Origin: Pannonibacter indicus
Lineage (GTDB): Bacteria; Pseudomonadota; Alphaproteobacteria; Rhizobiales; Stappiaceae
Assembly (NCBI RefSeq): GCF_001418225.1
Contig: NZ_LIPT01000010.1
Location: 1 to 64,000 of the forward strand
Length of the DNA: 64,000 nt
Direction of reading: 5' to 3'
The notes under the pieces were generated by a model, which saw only the letters and a list, made by a program, of their open reading frames with translations, was not told where the DNA came from and searched no databases. Made by a program: the position numbers and the translations under genes. Below are positions 328 through 10,643 of this stretch, in pieces; within the stretch, counting starts at the first letter, position 1; each line of letters begins with the position of its first letter.

Positions 328-1815
328 TCAAAGGCTCATGGTCGCGGCAACGGCGGATTTCCAGGCGCCGTATTTGCGCTGGCGCTCGTCTTCGCCGATG
401 GCAGGCTCGAAGCGCTTTTCGATGGCCCAGCTTTCGGCAAAGCCCTCCATGTCCGGATAGACGCCAGCCGCCATCCCCGCGAGCCAGGCAGCGCCCAGCG
501 CCGTTGTTTCCAGCACCTGCGGCCGGTCAACCGGGGCGCCGAGGATGTCGGAAAGGAACTGCATGGCCCAGTCGCTGGCGCTCATGCCGCCATCGACGCG
601 CAGCACGGGCTTCCCGGCTGCATCCGTCCAGTCCACCTGCATGGCTTCCAGCAGGTCCCGGGTCTGGTAGCCGACGCTTTCCAGCGCCGCCTTGGCGAAC
701 TCGGCGGGACCGGAGTTGCGGGTGAGGCCAAAGATCGCGCCGCGGCAATCCGGGCGCCAGTAAGGCGCGCCGAGGCCGGTGAAGGCGGGCACCATGATCA
801 CGTGCTGGCCGGGATCGGCCTGTTCGGCCAGAGGCTGGGTTTCCTTGGCTTCGCGGATGATCTTCAGCCCGTCGCGCAGCCACTGCACCACGGCACCGGC
901 GATGAAGATGGAGCCTTCCAGCGCATAGGTGCGCTTGCCGCCGATCTGATAGGCGACAGTGGTGAGCAGCCGGCTCTGCGAAACAACTGGTTTGTCACCG
1001 GTGTTGAGCAGGGCAAAGCAGCCGGTGCCATAGGTGGACTTCAGCATACCCGGCTTGAAGCACGCCTGCCCCACGGTCGCGGCCTGCTGATCACCGGCCA
1101 CACCCATGATCGGGATTTCGTGGCCGAATAGATCGGCGCGGGCATTGCCGTAATTGGCAGCACAGTCCTTCACTTCCGGCAGCATTCCCATGGGAATATC
1201 GAGAAGCTTGCAGATTTCTGCGCTCCACTCCCCCTTGTGAATGTCGAACAGCAAGGTGCGGGCGGCGTTGGTGGCGTCCGTTGCATGAACGGCGCCTGCC
1301 GTCAGCTTCCAGATGAGGAAGCTGTCGACCGTGCCGAACAGCAGATCGCCCTTTTCAGCGCGGGCGCGTGCCCCCTCCACGTTGTCGAGGATCCACTTCA
1401 GTTTGGTGCCGGAGAAATAGGGGTCGAGCAGCAGGCCGGTGCGGGCGCTGACCATGGCTTCATGGCCTTCGTCCTTCAGCTGGCGGCACAGGTCTGCCGT
1501 GCGGCGGTCCTGCCAGACGATGGCGTTATAAACCGGCTGGCCGGTGCTCCGGTCCCAGACCAGCGTCGTTTCACGCTGGTTGGTGATGCCGATGGCGGCA
1601 ATATCGCGGCCCGTGCGCCCGGCGCGCTCAATCGCAGCGCGGCAGGAACCGGCCGTCGTCGACCACAGATCCGCCGGATCATGCTCCACCCAGCCGGACT
1701 GGGGATAGATCTGCGGAAATTCCTCCTGCGCGCTCGCAACCACCTTCATGTGCTTGTCGAAGAGGATCGCGCGGCTCGAAGTCGTGCCCTGGTCAATGGC
1801 AAGAATATGGGTCAA
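328..1815 (-). CDS. glpK: Glycerol kinase, TTG start
   Basis: Phosphorylates glycerol with ATP to glycerol-3-phosphate in the cytoplasm, the first catabolic step after uptake. It belongs to the FGGY kinase family: the N-terminal phosphate-binding motif DQGTTSSR is at residues 8-15, and a C-terminal [18 protein letters not shown] segment is typical of GlpK. The 495-residue length matches the family. I chose the TTG at 1815 because GAGGAGG lies a few bases upstream and the product then begins directly with the kinase fold; an upstream ATG at 1860 would put that Shine-Dalgarno sequence inside the gene. It is the last gene of the leftward glp cluster, about 170 bp after glpV. Confidence 0.95.
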
Positions 1816-1940
1816 GTCAGCCTCCTCGATTGCACCAGCCGCAGAAGCCCCCTCCGCCATGGCGTGTGAGACGGGAGCATCTTGTTGTTCGATGAAACCG
1901 GGCTCCGCGGCGGTTTCCGCCAGGATCCGGTCAGCCCAGA

Positions 1941-1985: not shown

Positions 1986-3692
1986 TTATTTCCACGAGGC
2001 AATCAGCTCATCATAGGAAACGGTAATCGGCTGCTCCTTCTCGTCCGGGATCTTGCGCTTGGGCGCACCCGGCTGGTCGAACCAGAACTCGGCGCTTTGC
2101 TCCTCGTTCAGCTTCGGGCCGATATCGCCCTGCACGCCTGCACGCTCCAGGCGCTCAAGCACCTTTTCCTGCTCGGCGCAAAGCGCATCCATGGCTTCCT
2201 GCGGGGACTTTGCACCGGAGGATGCATCACCGATGTTCTGCCACCACAGCTGAGCCAGCTTCGGGTAGTCCGGAACGTTGGTGCCGGTCGGCGACCACTG
2301 CAGGCGGGCGGGCGAGCGGTAGAACTCGATCAGACCACCAAGCTTCGGAGCGCGTTCGGTGAAGCTGTCATGCGCAAGAGTGGATTCGCGGATGAAAGTC
2401 AGGCCGACATGGCTCTTCTTCACATCCACGGTCTTGGAGGTGACGAACTGGGCATAGAGCCAGGCCGCCTTGGCACGGTCAACCGGAGTGGACTTCATCA
2501 GCGTCCAGGAGCCAGCGTCCTGATAGCCCACCTTCATGCCCTCTTCCCAGTACACGCCATGCGGCGAGGGAGCCATGCGCCACTTCGGCGTGCCGTCCTC
2601 GTTCATGACCGGCAAGCCCGGCTTGACCATGTCGGCGGTAAAGGCGGTGTACCAGAAGATCTGCTGAGCAATCTCGCCTTGGGCAGGCACCGGGCCGGCT
2701 TCGCCGAACACCATGCCGGCAGCGGCCGGAGGCGCATACTTGTTCAGCCACTCGATGTATTTGGCGATCGAGTAGACCGCAGCCGGGCCGTTGGTGTCGC
2801 CACCACGGGCCACGCACGAGCCGACCGGCTGGAAGTTCTCGTTGACGCGGATGCCCCATTCATCGACCGGAAGGCCATTCGGCTCGCCCTTGTCGCCGGC
2901 ACCGGCCATCGACAGCCAGGCATCGGTGAAGCGCCAGCCGAGAGACGGGTCCTTCTTGCCGTAGTCCATGTGGCCATAGACTTTCTTGCCGTCGATTTCC
3001 CGGCCGGTGAAGAACTCGGCGATATCCTCATAAGCCGACCAGTTCACCGGCACGCCGAGCTCGTAGCCGTACTTTTCCTTGAAGTCCGCCTTGTTCTTCT
3101 CGTCGTTGAACCAGTCATACCGGAACCAATAGAGGTTCGCGAACTGCTGGTCGGGCAGCTGGTAGAGCTTGCCATCCGGGCCGGTCGTGAACTTGAGGCC
3201 GATGAAGTCATTGAGATCGAGGCCCGGATTGGTGACATCCTTGCCTTCGTTCGCCATCCAGTCGGTCAGGTTGCGGGCCTGCTGGTAGCGCCAGTGGGTG
3301 CCGATCAGATCCGAGTCATTGATGTAGGCGTCGTAGATGTTCTCGCCCGACTGCATCTGGGTCTGCAGCTTCTCCACCACATCGCCTTCACCGATCAGAT
3401 CATGGGTGACCTTGATGCCGGTGATCGCAGTGAAGGCCGGGGCCAGCACCTTGGCTTCGTATTCATGGGTGGTAATCGTTTCGGAAACGACCTTGATGTC
3501 CATACCCTTGAACGGAGCGGCAGCGTCAATGAACCACTGCATCTCGGCTTCCTGTTCGGCGCGTGACAGCGCCGACATGCCGCCGATTTCCGCGTCGAGG
3601 AATTTCTTTGCTGCCTCCATGTCAGCAAAGGCGCTTCCGCTTCCAACCAGCATGGCGAGCGCCATAGCGGTGGAGGTGTAAAACACTCTCAT
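1986..3692 (-). CDS. glpV: Glycerol ABC transporter substrate-binding protein
   Basis: Periplasmic solute receptor that would deliver glycerol to the GlpPQ-GlpST importer. The first about 23 residues form a Sec signal peptide (hydrophobic MALAMLVGSG core, cut near SAFA-D). At 568 residues it is long for a family-1 sugar-type binding protein, as is usual for GlpV of the rhizobial GlpSTPQV system. It is encoded after the permeases rather than before them. Assignment rests on overall resemblance plus the glpK/glpD context. A related carbohydrate or polyol substrate cannot be excluded from sequence alone. Confidence 0.9.
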   Translation of the reverse strand: MRVFYTSTAMALAMLVGSGSAFADMEAAKKFLDAEIGGMSALSRAEQEAEMQWFIDAAAPFKGMDIKVVSETITTHEYEAKVLAPAFTAITGIKVTHDLIGEGDVVEKLQTQMQSGENIYDAYINDSDLIGTHWRYQQARNLTDWMANEGKDVTNPGLDLNDFIGLKFTTGPDGKLYQLPDQQFANLYWFRYDWFNDEKNKADFKEKYGYELGVPVNWSAYEDIAEFFTGREIDGKKVYGHMDYGKKDPSLGWRFTDAWLSMAGAGDKGEPNGLPVDEWGIRVNENFQPVGSCVARGGDTNGPAAVYSIAKYIEWLNKYAPPAAAGMVFGEAGPVPAQGEIAQQIFWYTAFTADMVKPGLPVMNEDGTPKWRMAPSPHGVYWEEGMKVGYQDAGSWTLMKSTPVDRAKAAWLYAQFVTSKTVDVKKSHVGLTFIRESTLAHDSFTERAPKLGGLIEFYRSPARLQWSPTGTNVPDYPKLAQLWWQNIGDASSGAKSPQEAMDALCAEQEKVLERLERAGVQGDIGPKLNEEQSAEFWFDQPGAPKRKIPDEKEQPITVSYDELIASWK

Positions 3693-3741: not shown

Positions 3742-4014
3742 TCAAACCCAGCGGAAAACCGCAAGGGCATAGACGAGACAGGCGATCAGAGCCCCCCACA
3801 GGGGAGCGCCGAAGGCGGCGAGCCAGCCAAGCGTGATGAAGGCTGAGCCCAGAAGGGTTATGAAGAGACGGTCTCCCCGGGTCGTCTCGATCCGCAGCAC
3901 ACCGGTGCGCGGCGTCTCCGGAAAGCGGATCGCCAGCACGGTGAAGATCACCAGCAGCGCCGCTATCGTCGCGAAGAAAATCGCGGTCGGAGCAGTCCAG
4001 GCCATCCAGTCCAT
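3742..4014 (-). CDS. Small DUF2160-type membrane protein of the glycerol operon
   Basis: A 90-residue protein with two or three hydrophobic spans (about residues 7-28, 50-66 and 68-88), separated by a short charged segment with RIETTRGDR. It resembles the DUF2160 family, which recurs in glycerol ABC operons. The biochemical role is not known to me; an accessory subunit or assembly factor of the permease is a reasonable guess. It lies 17 bp after glpQ and 49 bp before glpV, with AGGGAGA upstream of its ATG, so it is very likely co-translated with the transporter. Confidence 0.8.
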   Translation of the reverse strand: MDWMAWTAPTAIFFATIAALLVIFTVLAIRFPETPRTGVLRIETTRGDRLFITLLGSAFITLGWLAAFGAPLWGALIACLVYALAVFRWV

Positions 4015-4031: not shown

Positions 4032-5763
<1,732 letters not shown>

Positions 5764-5764
<1 letters not shown>

Positions 5765-6840
5765 CAGGCCACCTCCCCCGTAACGCGCCAGCTGTTGGCA
5801 TAGACATTGACATGCGCGGGATCGAACACCACGCGGGTCATGCCGGATGTGACGGGGTCGCTTTCGCCCGCAATGATGTTGATGTCAGCGCCGAAGAACT
5901 CGGCCCGGACGATCTTGTGCCGCCCCACATCCTCGACGCGGCGCACCTTCACCGGCAGGCCTTCGCTTTCCGACAGGCGCACGAACTCGGGCCGCACACC
6001 GATCTGGATCTTGCCGTCCAGACCGGAATAGCCGTGGCCAAGCGGAATGGTTGCCCCGTTCACATAGGCCGAGTTGCCCTCGACCTTGGCATCCATCAGG
6101 TTCATGCCCGGCGAGCCGATGAAATAGCCGACGAATGTGTGGGCCGGCCGTTCGAACAGTTCCTGCGGCGTGCCGATCTGCACCACCCGGCCGTCATACA
6201 TCACCACCACCTTGTCGGCGAAAGTCAGCGCCTCGGTCTGGTCATGCGTCACATAGATCATCGTGTGGCCGAACTCGTGATGCAGCGACTTCAGCTGCGT
6301 TCTGAGTTCCCACTTCATGTGCGGGTCGATCACGGTCAGCGGCTCGTCGAAGAGCAGCGCGTTGACGTCCTCCCGTACCATGCCGCGGCCGAGGGAAATC
6401 TTCTGCTTGGCATCGGCGGTCAACCCGCGGGCCTTGCGGTCCAGCACCTCTTCCATGCCGATCATCCGGGCAATCTTCTGCACGCGCTCGGCGACATAGG
6501 CAGCGCCCGCCCCCCGGTTCTTCAGCGGAAACGCCAGGTTTCCGCGCACCGTCATCGTGTCGTAGACGACCGGGAACTGGAACACCTGCGCAATGTTGCG
6601 TTCCGCCGTCGCCTTCCCGGTGACATCGGTGTCATTGAACAGGATGCGGCCCTGGCTCGGCACCAGCAGGCCGGAGATGATGTTGAGGAGCGTGGACTTG
6701 CCGCAGCCGGACGAACCGAGCAGCGCATAGGCCTCACCATCGTTCCAGACGTGATTCAGCTCCTTGAGCGCAAAGTCGTTCTCGTTCTTCGGGCGCGGAT
6801 TGTAGGAATGGGCGAGATTGTCGAGTGTGATCTTGGCCAT
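5764..6840 (-). CDS. glpT: Glycerol ABC transporter ATPase with degenerate signature motif
   Basis: ATP-binding subunit of 358 residues. Walker A GSSGCGKS is at residues 42-49, Walker B with catalytic Glu (LLFDEP) near 162-167, and the switch His in YVTHD at 199. The C-terminal third is a regulatory OB-type domain as in MalK-like ATPases. The expected LSGGQ signature is replaced by LTADAKQKI at about 140-148, so this subunit probably cannot complete the ATP site of its partner in the usual way; its partner GlpS shows the complementary defect. The start at 6840 follows GGAGGGACCC; a longer frame upstream lies inside glpS and was rejected. Confidence 0.92.
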
Positions 6841-6850
6841 GGGTCCCTCC

Positions 6851-7939
6851 TCACGCCGCCAGCGCATAGGCGGCCGGAGCCACCAGCGAACCGTCCCGTC
6901 CGAAGACATAGACATGGGAAGGATCGAGATAGACCTTGAGCGCCGTTCCCAGGGCCAGGTCATGCACGCCATGCACAAGCCCCACCCAGCGCTCGCCATG
7001 GTGCTCCAGATGCACGAAGGTCTCCGACCCGGTGATCTCCGTGACCATCAGATGCGCCGTGAATTCCATGGCATCGGCGCTGTGCCGGTGCAGTTCCAGA
7101 TGATTGGGGCGGAAGCCCGCGATATAGCGGCCATCGCTCAGATCCGACAGCTTTCCGGCGGCCGGGATCGACTGGCCGTCACCGAACATCAGCCGGGCCC
7201 CGGCCTTGGCGATCTGAAGGAAGTTCATCGGAGGATCGGAGAAAACGCGCGCCGTCGTTGCGTCAACCGGGCGCCGGTAGACCTCCGGCGTCGGGCCGAA
7301 CTGGGTCACCCGGCCCTGCCAGAGCGCCGCCGTGTTTCCGCCAAGCAGCAGTGCCTCTTCCGGCTCCGTCGTCGCATAGACGAAGATCGAACCGGATGCC
7401 TCGAAGATCTTCGGGATTTCGACGCGCAATTCCTCGCGCAGCTTGTAGTCGAGGTTGGCGAGCGGCTCATCGAGCAGCACCAGACCTGCATTCTTAACAA
7501 GCGCACGTGCCAGCGCACAGCGCTGCTGCTGGCCGCCCGAGAGCTCGAGCGGCTTGCGCTGCAGCATCGGGGTGAGCTTCATCATCTCGGCGGTCTGACG
7601 CACCGCCCTGTCAATGTCCGCAGCGGGCTTGCCCATCAGCCGCAGCGGGCTGGCAATGTTGTCATAGACGGTCATTGCCGGATAGTTGATGAACTGCTGA
7701 TAGACCATGGCGATGGCGCGATCCTGCACCCGCACACCGGTCACGTCCGTGCCGTTCCAGAAGATCCTGCCCGAAGACGGCTGATCAAGGCCGGCCATCA
7801 GGCGCATGAGTGACGTCTTGCCGGCCGAAGTCGGTCCAAGCAGGACGTTCATGCTGCCCTCACGCAAGGTAAGGTTCGTTGTGTGGATGTGCGTCTGCCC
7901 ACCCACGACCTTGGAGACATTCTCCAGGACCAGGGTCAT
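6851..7939 (-). CDS. glpS: Glycerol ABC transporter ATPase lacking the switch histidine
   Basis: ATP-binding subunit of 362 residues. Walker A GPTSAGKT is at residues 35-42, an intact LSGGQ signature at 133-137 and Walker B LVLLDEP at 153-159. Where most transporters have a THD switch motif this protein has TTE (residues 190-192), so the catalytic His is replaced by Thr. A C-terminal regulatory domain follows from about residue 240. Start chosen at 7939 because GGGAGGAAT precedes the ATG. It lies 23 bp after glpD and 10 bp before glpT. Confidence 0.92.
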   Translation of the reverse strand: MTLVLENVSKVVGGQTHIHTTNLTLREGSMNVLLGPTSAGKTSLMRLMAGLDQPSSGRIFWNGTDVTGVRVQDRAIAMVYQQFINYPAMTVYDNIASPLRLMGKPAADIDRAVRQTAEMMKLTPMLQRKPLELSGGQQQRCALARALVKNAGLVLLDEPLANLDYKLREELRVEIPKIFEASGSIFVYATTEPEEALLLGGNTAALWQGRVTQFGPTPEVYRRPVDATTARVFSDPPMNFLQIAKAGARLMFGDGQSIPAAGKLSDLSDGRYIAGFRPNHLELHRHSADAMEFTAHLMVTEITGSETFVHLEHHGERWVGLVHGVHDLALGTALKVYLDPSHVYVFGRDGSLVAPAAYALAA

Positions 7940-7962: not shown

Positions 7963-9564
7963 CTACTGAGCTGCAGCCTCCCCAAGCCGCAGCGCACAGG
8001 TACTCTTCATCCACGCATCCAGAGCCGCCACCTCGGCAGCACTCAGACGCAGGCCCAGTTTCGACCGGCGCCACACCACATCCTCGGCGGTGCGCGCATA
8101 TTCCTTTTCAATCAGCCAGTTGACTTCCCGCTCGGTCAGGTTCCATCCGAAGTGACGGCCAAGGTCCTCCACCTTTGCCGCTCCAGCCAGAATACCCGCC
8201 GCCTCGGTGCCATATGCCTTCACCAGGCGCGTGGCCCAGCGCTCGTCGAGGAACGGATACTCGGCGCGCAGGTCCGCAATCAGCTTCGCAACGCCCAGCA
8301 CCGGAAAGTCACCGCCCGGAAGCGGCACACCGGCTGTCCATGCCCCGGCCGTGCCGGGGAAATAGGGCACGATCTTTTCCAGCGCATGCTCGGCGAGCTT
8401 GCGGTAGGTGGTGATCTTGCCGCCGAAGACATTGAGCAGCGGCGCACCGCCTGTCTCTTCCACCTTCAGCACGTAATCGCGGGTCGCCGCCGTCGCCGAC
8501 TTGGCGCCGTCATTGTAGAGCGGGCGCACACCGGAATAGCTCCAGACGATATCATCAACCGTCACCGGGCGCTTGAAATAGCCGGAAGCGAATTTCAGCA
8601 GATAGTCGCGCTCCTTCTCGGTACAGACCGGCTTGACGCCCGGATCCGGATGGTCGGCATCCGTGGTGCCGATCAGCGTGAAATCCGTCTCGTAGGGAAT
8701 GGCGAAAATGATGCGGCCATCTTCGCCCTGGAAGAAGTAACACTTGCCGTGGTCGAAGAGCTTCTTCGTGACGATGTGGCTGCCACGCACGAGGCGCACG
8801 CTTTCCTGCGAATTGGAGTGCACCGTGTTGCGGATCACATCCCCGACCCAGGGGCCACCGGCATTGATCAGCATCTTTGCCTTGCGGCTGGTGCGGGCGC
8901 CGGTGCCGCGGTCTTCCAGCACGATCGACCACAGGCCATCCACGCGCTCGGCGGAGACCACACGGGTACGCACCATCACCTCGGCGCCGCGCGCCTCAGC
9001 GTCACGGGCATTCAGCACCACAAGGCGCGAGTCCTCGATCCAGCAGTCGGAATATTCATAGGCCTTGGCGAAGCGGTCCTGCAGCGGCTCCCCCTCGGGA
9101 GCGGACGTCAGATCGACCGTCGTGGTGCCGGGCAGGATCTTGCGGCCGCCCAGATTGTCATAAAGGAACAGGCCGAAGCGGATCAGCCACGCCGGGCGGC
9201 GGCCCTTCATCCAGGGCATTACCATGTTCAGCAGCTTCGAGGTCGGCGTTTCGCCCTCGAAGCGCATATCCTTGTGATAGGGCAGCACGAAGCGCATCGG
9301 CCAGCTGATATGCGGCATCGCCTCCAACAGCGTTTCCCGCTCGATGAGCGCCTCGCGCACCAGCCTGATCTCGAAATATTCGAGATAGCGCAACCCGCCA
9401 TGGAACAGCTTGGTGGAGGCCGAAGAGGTGGCAGATGCCAGGTCGTTCATCTCGGCCAGCGCCACGGACAGGCCGCGCCCCGCCGCATCACGGGCAATGC
9501 CGCAGCCATTGATGCCACCGCCGATGATAAAGAGATCGACCACCTGGTCTTGCTGCGACGTCAC
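7963..9564 (-). CDS. glpD: Glycerol-3-phosphate dehydrogenase, GTG start
   Basis: Membrane-associated FAD enzyme that oxidises glycerol-3-phosphate to dihydroxyacetone phosphate and passes electrons to quinone. The dinucleotide-binding motif GGGINGCG is at about residues 14-21, and the family segment STKLFHGGLRYLE follows. Length of about 533 residues is typical. The GTG at 9564 is preferred because AGGAGG ends nine bases upstream; ATG at 9591 is possible but would place that site within the gene. First gene of the leftward glp operon, divergent from glpR. Confidence 0.94.
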   Translation of the reverse strand: MTSQQDQVVDLFIIGGGINGCGIARDAAGRGLSVALAEMNDLASATSSASTKLFHGGLRYLEYFEIRLVREALIERETLLEAMPHISWPMRFVLPYHKDMRFEGETPTSKLLNMVMPWMKGRRPAWLIRFGLFLYDNLGGRKILPGTTTVDLTSAPEGEPLQDRFAKAYEYSDCWIEDSRLVVLNARDAEARGAEVMVRTRVVSAERVDGLWSIVLEDRGTGARTSRKAKMLINAGGPWVGDVIRNTVHSNSQESVRLVRGSHIVTKKLFDHGKCYFFQGEDGRIIFAIPYETDFTLIGTTDADHPDPGVKPVCTEKERDYLLKFASGYFKRPVTVDDIVWSYSGVRPLYNDGAKSATAATRDYVLKVEETGGAPLLNVFGGKITTYRKLAEHALEKIVPYFPGTAGAWTAGVPLPGGDFPVLGVAKLIADLRAEYPFLDERWATRLVKAYGTEAAGILAGAAKVEDLGRHFGWNLTEREVNWLIEKEYARTAEDVVWRRSKLGLRLSAAEVAALDAWMKSTCALRLGEAAAQ

Positions 9565-9595
9565 GGGCACGTGCCTCCTGAAACCGGACATTTGT

Positions 9596-9666
9596 GAAAA
9601 CAAACGAACCACAAGACGTAGGCTTTCGTCAATCGCTGATTTTCGTTTCTGTTCGTTTTTGTTTTC
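9596..9666. promoter_or_regulatory. Candidate GlpR operator region (repeated TTCGTTT)
   Basis: Between glpD and glpR lie GAAAACAAACGAAC at 9596-9609 and, on the other side, TTTTCGTTTCTGTTCGTTTT from 9640, continuing to GTTTTC at 9666. The first is close to the reverse complement of the second. DeoR-family repressors often bind direct repeats of short T/C/G words of this kind, so this is the likely site for repression of glpD and autoregulation. The repeats are seen directly; binding is inferred. Confidence 0.6.
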
Positions 9667-9878: not shown

Positions 9879-10643
9879 GTGTCCCAGAGCTTCCGCCAGC
9901 CCGAGATTCTCGAACTCGCCCGCCAGCAGGGGAAAGTCACCGTCGAAGGGCTTGCCGCCCATTTCGGCGTGACCGTGCAAACCATCCGCCGGGATCTGGC
10001 CGATCTCGCCGACAGCGGCCGGCTTGAGCGGGTGCATGGCGGCGCGATCCTGCCCTCCGGCGTCTCCAACATCGGCTATGAGGACCGGCGCAGCCTGAAC
10101 CGTGAGGCAAAGGCCGCCATTGCAGAGGCCTGCGCGAAGGCCATTCCGGAAAACACGTCGGTGTTTCTCAACATCGGCACCAGCACGGAAGCTGTTGCCC
10201 GCGCCCTGCTGCATCACCGCAATCTCATGGCTGTGACCAACAACATGAATGTCGCCAATATCCTTGCCGCCAACCCGGACTGTCAGGTCATTGTGGCAGG
10301 CGGGGCCTTGCGGCGCACCGATGGGGGCCTGGTCGGCACGTTGACCATGCGCACCATCGAACAGTTCCGCTTCGACTTTGCCGTCATCGGCTGCTCGGCG
10401 CTGGACGAGGACGGCGACCTGCTGGACTTCGACATTCAGGAAGTCGGCGTCAGCCAGACCATCATCCGGCAGGCGCGCAAGACATTTCTGGTCAGCGATC
10501 ACTCCAAGTTCCTGCGCGGCGCGCCCGTGCGGATTGCCTCGCTGAGCGAGATCGACACCTTTTTCACCGACCGGCCGCTCTCTCCTGCCCTCAGCACACG
10601 CTGCCGGGAATGGGGTACGAAGACGGTGATCTGTGGCGGATAA
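9879..10643 (+). CDS. glpR: DeoR-family glycerol-3-phosphate repressor, GTG start
   Basis: Transcriptional repressor of glycerol use, 254 residues. The N-terminal DeoR helix-turn-helix spans residues 18-45 ([20 protein letters not shown]), followed by the RVHGGA linker typical of the family. The C-terminal sugar-phosphate sensing domain (DeoRC) contains [14 protein letters not shown] and [19 protein letters not shown]. Glycerol-3-phosphate is the expected inducer. The GTG at 9879 follows AAAAGGA. It is transcribed away from glpD, and the repeated TTCGTTT words between the two genes are the probable operator. Confidence 0.93.

Follow-up and report, generated by a model that had tools for sequence, protein, structure and literature searches.

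Degenerate ATP sites in described transporters

Maltose-type importers are the standard example of a transporter whose two ATP sites are equivalent, with MalK, UgpC and SugC forming homodimers that carry two canonical sites. By sequence, MalK-like and SugC chains are the closest solved relatives of GlpS and GlpT, the two ATPases considered here, and an OB or TOBE C-terminal domain is common to them. A search of the PDB returned no solved orthologue of either GlpS or GlpT, the best matches being MalK-like chains at 213 and 222 bits. Both proteins differ from the UgpC family in scoring below the cut-off of its model (NF008653, 432 bits), at 251.1 bits for GlpS and 283.9 bits for GlpT.

Degenerate ATP sites are common in exporters, according to the parts of an exporter-centred review drawn on here (PMC7756269). 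In Pdr5-type exporters, the same parts describe one composite site that combines an altered signature with the partner's altered H-loop, as we propose for GlpS and GlpT; in Pdr5 itself the signature reads LNVEQ and the His is replaced by Tyr. However, many degenerate-site exporters have a changed catalytic Glu, and Pdr5 has a changed Walker A Lys (PMC7756269, same parts), whereas both residues are intact in GlpS. Among importers, RbsA and NupO are fused type II ATPases reported to contain one degenerate site with a deviant signature (PMC11466899, in the sections drawn on). The claim of an earlier sequence-only reading, that asymmetric sites are unusual for solute importers, is therefore only partly right, since RbsA and NupO speak against it. 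These two carry two NBDs per chain and have lost the Walker A Lys in the second NBD (PMC11466899, same sections), whereas GlpS and GlpT are separate subunits that retain this Lys, and the residue missing there is the switch His. DppDF, like GlpS/GlpT, is an importer with two different ATPase subunits, but both are described as carrying functional motifs, and either catalytic Glu mutant alone keeps ATPase activity (PMC12136057, in part). Asymmetric nucleotide binding is also described for IrtAB, an importer of exporter fold (PMC10246721, in part).

Searches of open-licence PubMed Central papers listed none in which the title, the opening of the abstract or the parts drawn on describe the GlpS/GlpT site asymmetry. 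Within that literature, a MalK-type importer whose two ATPases share one degenerate site appears to be new; degenerate sites themselves are already known. For type I importers, GlpST opens the questions of whether one hydrolysis per cycle suffices and of what a non-hydrolysing site does, and since GlpS and GlpT are encoded by separate genes, each ATP site can be mutated alone.

The glycerol importer operon and its two ATPases

The glpSTPQUV genes of Rhizobium leguminosarum encode a glycerol ABC importer (Ding et al. 2012, via the part of PMC7912956 drawn on here). Between that system and the operon found in the window (i.e., the whole 64,000-nucleotide stretch of DNA that was analysed) we see no difference in kind: common to both are the gene order, a DUF2160 gene, two ATPases, two permeases and a solute-binding protein, with glpD and glpK flanking in each case. 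The same part of PMC7912956 is silent on motif asymmetry. Gene calls and profile searches place a glpR-like gene on the plus strand of the window and glpD-S-T-P-Q-U-V-K on the opposite strand, as follows.

328..1860, minus strand: glpK, glycerol kinase (NCBIfam match over cut-off)
1986..3692, minus strand: glpV, 568-aa solute-binding protein (SBP_bac_1, 46 bits in Pfam against a cut-off of 26)
3742..4014, minus strand: glpU, small membrane protein with a DUF2160 domain (PF09928, 117.5 bits in Pfam against a cut-off of 28)
4032..4892, minus strand: glpQ, permease subunit (GlcU, MalG and UgpE models matched, all below cut-offs)
4892..5764, minus strand: glpP, permease subunit (UgpA and other permease models matched, all below cut-offs)
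5764..6840, minus strand: glpT, ABC ATPase subunit 2 of 358 aa (LTADAKQ as signature, His199 kept at the switch)
6851..7939, minus strand: glpS, ABC ATPase subunit 1 of 362 aa (LSGGQ as signature, Thr in place of the switch His)
7963..9612, minus strand: glpD, glycerol-3-phosphate dehydrogenase (NCBIfam match over cut-off)
9879..10643, plus strand: divergent glpR-like regulator of the DeoR family (DeoR/GlpR family model best, 254 bits, below its cut-off of 331)

The order glpD-S-T-P-Q-U(DUF2160)-V-K with a glpR-like regulator agrees with that of two annotated R. leguminosarum plasmids, and judged by gene content and order the operon is the glycerol ABC importer operon known from that species. 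Transport of glycerol by the window's importer would follow by analogy with the published R. leguminosarum work cited in PMC7912956 (in the part drawn on). A PHA-producing strain has the same gene set, although glpU is not listed there, and transcript levels of that set differ between glycerol and glucose (PMC11223650, in part). GlpT here denotes an ABC ATPase and not the glycerol-3-phosphate antiporter so named. The domain content of both ATPases is that of the CUT1 type (PF00005 and TOBE_2 in GlpS, PF00005 and OB_MalK in GlpT), as is their setting, with glpP, glpQ and glpV supplying two permeases and a solute-binding protein beside glpST. GlpV, at 568 aa, is presumably long for a CUT1 solute-binding protein. 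The DUF2160 domain of GlpU served as the marker of 84 of the loci used below. Among the matches listed, the nearest genome record by GlpT was Pannonibacter carbonis (92% identity).

The ATPase motifs of the window's pair, with their frequencies across the homologues compared, are given below.

6691..6717, minus strand: GlpT Walker A GSSGCGKST (residues 42-50), canonical; Lys48 in 165/165
6403..6423, minus strand: GlpT degenerate signature LTADAKQ (140-146); Gly at positions 3 and 4 in 0/165
6325..6339, minus strand: GlpT D-loop LTVID (168-172), altered; Thr169 in 165/165, Val170 in 164/165, Ile171 in 165/165
6244..6246, minus strand: GlpT switch His199, canonical, in VTHDQ; 165/165
7904..7906, minus strand: GlpS A-loop position Val12, non-aromatic; aromatic or His in 2/163 GlpS, 165/165 GlpT and 74/74 controls
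7811..7837, minus strand: GlpS Walker A GPTSAGKTS (35-43); Lys in 163/163 readable, Gly at residue 38 in only 6/163
7529..7543, minus strand: GlpS signature LSGGQ (133-137), canonical; Ser-Gly-Gly-Gln 134-137 in 164/164, residue 133 Leu in 161 and Ile in 3
7361..7375, minus strand: GlpS switch region ATTEP (189-193), with Thr191 at the His position; Thr in 159 and Ser in 5 of 164

The Walker B regions read LFDEP (163-167) in GlpT and LLDEP (155-159) in GlpS. The sequence-only reading had described a GlpT with normal Walker A, Walker B and His199 and the signature LTADAKQ, next to a GlpS with a normal LSGGQ and its switch His changed to Thr (TTE, 190-192). Both genes are in place and their motifs read exactly so, Thr191 of ATTEP aligning with GlpT His199.

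Conservation of the complementary pattern

Two sets of loci were compared with the window: GlpT relatives, taken as the best 80 of at least 594 genomes encoding one, and the loci of 84 other Pseudomonadota genomes with a full DUF2160 match (the search matched 85 of 398 Pseudomonadota genomes, one being the window's own). GlpS and GlpT were both present in 163 of these 164 loci, the contig of the other (L035) beginning too near GlpT, and 164 pairs were thus compared (GlpT n = 165, GlpS n = 164, window included). Short loci (L081-L110) that duplicate DUF2160 loci were left out of the counts, and some species may stand in both sets. The proteins form 136 GlpS and 130 GlpT clusters at 90% identity, and pairwise identity goes down to 39% in GlpS and to 46% in GlpT. 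Every DUF2160-marked locus (84/84) encodes both ATPases. For controls, we aligned 74 other CUT1-type ATPases, identical rows removed. Their sources were 16 loci in the genome of the window that matched GlpT strongly (GlpT and GlpS themselves excluded), genomes of the same class in which the UgpC model found a match, and the neighbours of partial DUF2160 matches. Choice by these models favours canonical proteins, and the set is a fair yardstick rather than a broad one.

We show that all 164 pairs fall in one class, in which GlpT has lost the signature and GlpS the switch His. Paired rather than random loss of these motifs had been set beforehand as the check on the pattern, and the loss is paired in 164/164 pairs as well as in the 7/7 plasmid pairs described below. 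The complementary pattern is real, conserved and not due to chance. GlpT never has Gly at signature positions 3 or 4 and always has the switch His, while in GlpS the signature Gly-Gly is universal (164/164) and His never occupies the switch position; in the controls, the switch His was present in all 73 readable rows (one was masked) and the signature Gly-Gly in 73 of 74. Further departures accompany the split. The A-loop aromatic is missing from GlpS in 161 of 163 readable rows and the fourth Walker A glycine in 157 of 163, and the GlpT D-loop reads TVID in 164/165, compared with an A-loop aromatic, a D-loop Leu-Asp and Leu at the position of GlpT Ile171 in 74/74 controls each. Residue 17 of GlpS, which is His or aromatic in 155/163 rows, might take over from the missing aromatic of the A-loop.

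GlpS nevertheless retains Walker A Lys41 and Thr42 (163/163 readable), Q-loop Gln81 (163/163) and Walker B Asp157 and Glu158 (164/164). A replaced catalytic Glu, which is frequent in exporters with degenerate sites and is not required for that class, was found in neither protein (Glu in 164/164 GlpS and 165/165 GlpT). A deviant signature in one NBD together with a deviant catalytic residue in the partner, both assigned to one site by established geometry, was found in 164/164 pairs and in 7/7 plasmid pairs. Hydrolysis at one site only would be probable.

Several residues are off consensus at once, and position 5 of the GlpT signature is variable (among 165 rows, 105 have Ala, 24 have Glu, 21 have Gln and the remainder other residues), as would be seen if one site had lost selection and its residues had drifted. 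Such relaxed decay is hardly credible, because the replacements are near-invariant across all the clusters, down to the lowest identities in the sample. Asp143 occurs in 164/165 GlpT, Lys145 and Gln146 in 165/165, and Thr190 in 164/164 GlpS. Because these residues are near-invariant, the conservation of the altered motifs themselves argues for function and not for decay.

Wherever a locus encodes the two ATPases (163/163), GlpS and GlpT are adjacent, in that order, with a gap of -14 to 43 bp. A quick tree was built from 138 rows (32 GlpS, 32 GlpT and 74 controls) on an alignment without the A-loop, signature, D-loop and switch columns. GlpS and GlpT each formed one clade in it (SH-aLRT 100 each); their sister grouping, which would imply one duplication, had a support of only 83, on long branches. 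A handful of columns that mark clades dominated the interprotein mutual information across the 164 pairs, which gave no signal for or against coupling. Homodimers are the normal arrangement in MalK-type CUT1 importers, and on that precedent GlpS and GlpT could remain unpaired, each homodimeric, with the motif changes tuning or silencing one of them. We consider this very unlikely, since both sites of a GlpS homodimer would lack the switch His and both sites of a GlpT homodimer the signature, whereas a heterodimer restores exactly one full site, and since both genes are present and adjacent in 163/163 loci uncut by a contig end between them. The pattern across the 164 pairs and the conservation by column led us to hold both separate homodimers and simple decay unlikely.

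Plasmid records with a GlpT match at E <= 1e-80 numbered 258 (121 of them from Rhizobium, 51 predicted to be conjugative), which indicates that the importer is often plasmid-borne. Beyond the 164 pairs, we read seven named pairs from these 258 records, and all showed the same split. Two are R. leguminosarum plasmid pairs, chosen for their link to published work, with GlpS/GlpT motifs as in the window; the other five, from Streptomyces chartreusis, Photobacterium, Sphaerotilus, Thalassospira and Maritalea, are distant, and exceptions were likeliest there. The Streptomyces chartreusis (Actinomycetota) pair lies in a stretch without annotated genes on a 1.16 Mb linear plasmid (L279:4761-7077). 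The 164 pairs include those of two MAGs labelled Campylobacterota (L073 and L077, labels as given), and these show the pattern too; DUF2160 was found in 2 of 150 genomes of the phylum of L077, its own included. A lineage-specific oddity was rejected as an explanation, the same pattern being present in copies of betaproteobacterial, gammaproteobacterial, rhodospirillal and actinomycete origin. One record bears the title Enemella evansiae (L012), which we take to be an actinomycete name, and encodes a GlpT 82% identical to that of the window; its title looks mislabelled, because its phylum search shares many places with the Pseudomonadota search. A phage search gave 25 records, all with matches below 60% identity, and the best among the matches listed (39%) is at the level of paralogues.

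A proposed pair of unlike ATP sites and their mechanism

We placed the D-loop in the opposite site, as in MalK-type structures. In an ABC ATP site, the signature of one subunit meets Walker A, Walker B and the A-, Q- and H-loops of its partner, and both D-loops stabilise the middle of the interface (PMC7756269, in the parts drawn on). By this geometry, GlpS Thr191 and GlpT LTADAKQ would lie in one composite site, so that the two defects would be paired there. This agrees with the sequence-only reading, which had assigned both to the site of the GlpS Walker motifs and the GlpT signature and had expected one canonical site to be left; the latter, formed by the GlpT Walker motifs and the GlpS signature, is indeed unchanged in the window's pair. 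In that pair, all altered elements (the A-loop, fourth Walker A glycine and switch of GlpS, and the signature and D-loop of GlpT) map to the GlpS-Walker/GlpT-signature site. Across the whole family, the sole departure in the other site is Val at residue 161, the second residue of the GlpS D-loop (Val 36/164, Ala 128/164; Ser, Gly or Ala in 74/74 controls). A random throw of five altered elements over the 14 motif elements of the two sites would put all of them in one site with p = 0.02, and a throw of four with p = 0.07; since the list of elements was made after looking, this figure is weak on its own, and the strong evidence is the invariance across pairs.

Most likely, the ATPase of this type I (MalK-like, CUT1) glycerol importer is an obligate heterodimer of GlpS and GlpT whose two ATP sites differ, one being hydrolytic and the other degenerate. 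Site A would consist of the A-loop, Walker A, Q-loop, Walker B and His199 of GlpT together with LSGGQ and the D-loop of GlpS, a canonical arrangement expected to hydrolyse ATP. Site B would bring the GlpS Walker region, with Thr191, up against LTADAKQ and the TVID D-loop of GlpT. Given that Lys41, Gln81, Asp157 and Glu158 of GlpS are kept in every readable row, site B probably still binds Mg-ATP; with the signature glycines and the switch His gone, its turnover would be slow or nil, and it may serve as a clamp or hinge, at a cost of about one ATP per glycerol. Some hydrolysis in site B would still be possible, because GlpS keeps the catalytic Glu. We infer the assignment of motifs to composite sites by analogy with established ABC geometry, and on the motif evidence regard this assignment, heterodimer formation, retention of ATP in site B and single-site hydrolysis each as probable.

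The same residues bear on whether site B holds any ATP between the subunits. The second glycine of the signature is replaced by Asp in 164/165 GlpT, and 161/163 GlpS have lost the A-loop aromatic; Asp143 could repel the gamma-phosphate and leave the site empty or ADP-bound, with one sandwiched ATP per cycle. We find this possible but doubtful: GlpS keeps the Walker A Lys and Thr42, the Q-loop Gln and both acidic residues of Walker B (Asp and Glu), a larger set than a pocket out of use would require, and Pdr5, whose degenerate site has LNVEQ and lacks the His through replacement, works as a transporter (PMC7756269, in part). An ATP-binding site B thus remains our preferred reading. Taken further, GlpST would be a MalK-type importer that has permanently given up one hydrolysis site. 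Each cycle of glycerol import would spend one ATP, hydrolysed at the GlpT-Walker/GlpS-signature site, and the second site would act as a fixed clamp with a conserved motif of its own, in every copy examined; we give this full description an even chance. The motif of the putative clamp is ATTEP facing L-x-A-D-x-K-Q, and the pattern is present in every copy examined, from Pseudomonadota and the Streptomyces plasmid to the MAGs labelled Campylobacterota.

Four genomes of the window's class encode another adjacent pair of CUT1-type ATPases (L247:4514-6609, L248:4648-6757, L249:4543-6661 and L250:4492-7021). The first member has the signature LAGGD, LSSGD or LSGGD and the D-loop LGTLD or LGALD, the second has LSGGE, and the switch His is kept in both, making this pair possibly a milder heterodimeric importer. 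In six further genomes (L211-L216), a second, partial DUF2160-like match lies near one canonical CUT1-type ATPase, with no second ATPase in the stretch, suggesting that small membrane proteins of the DUF2160-like kind may also work with other importers.
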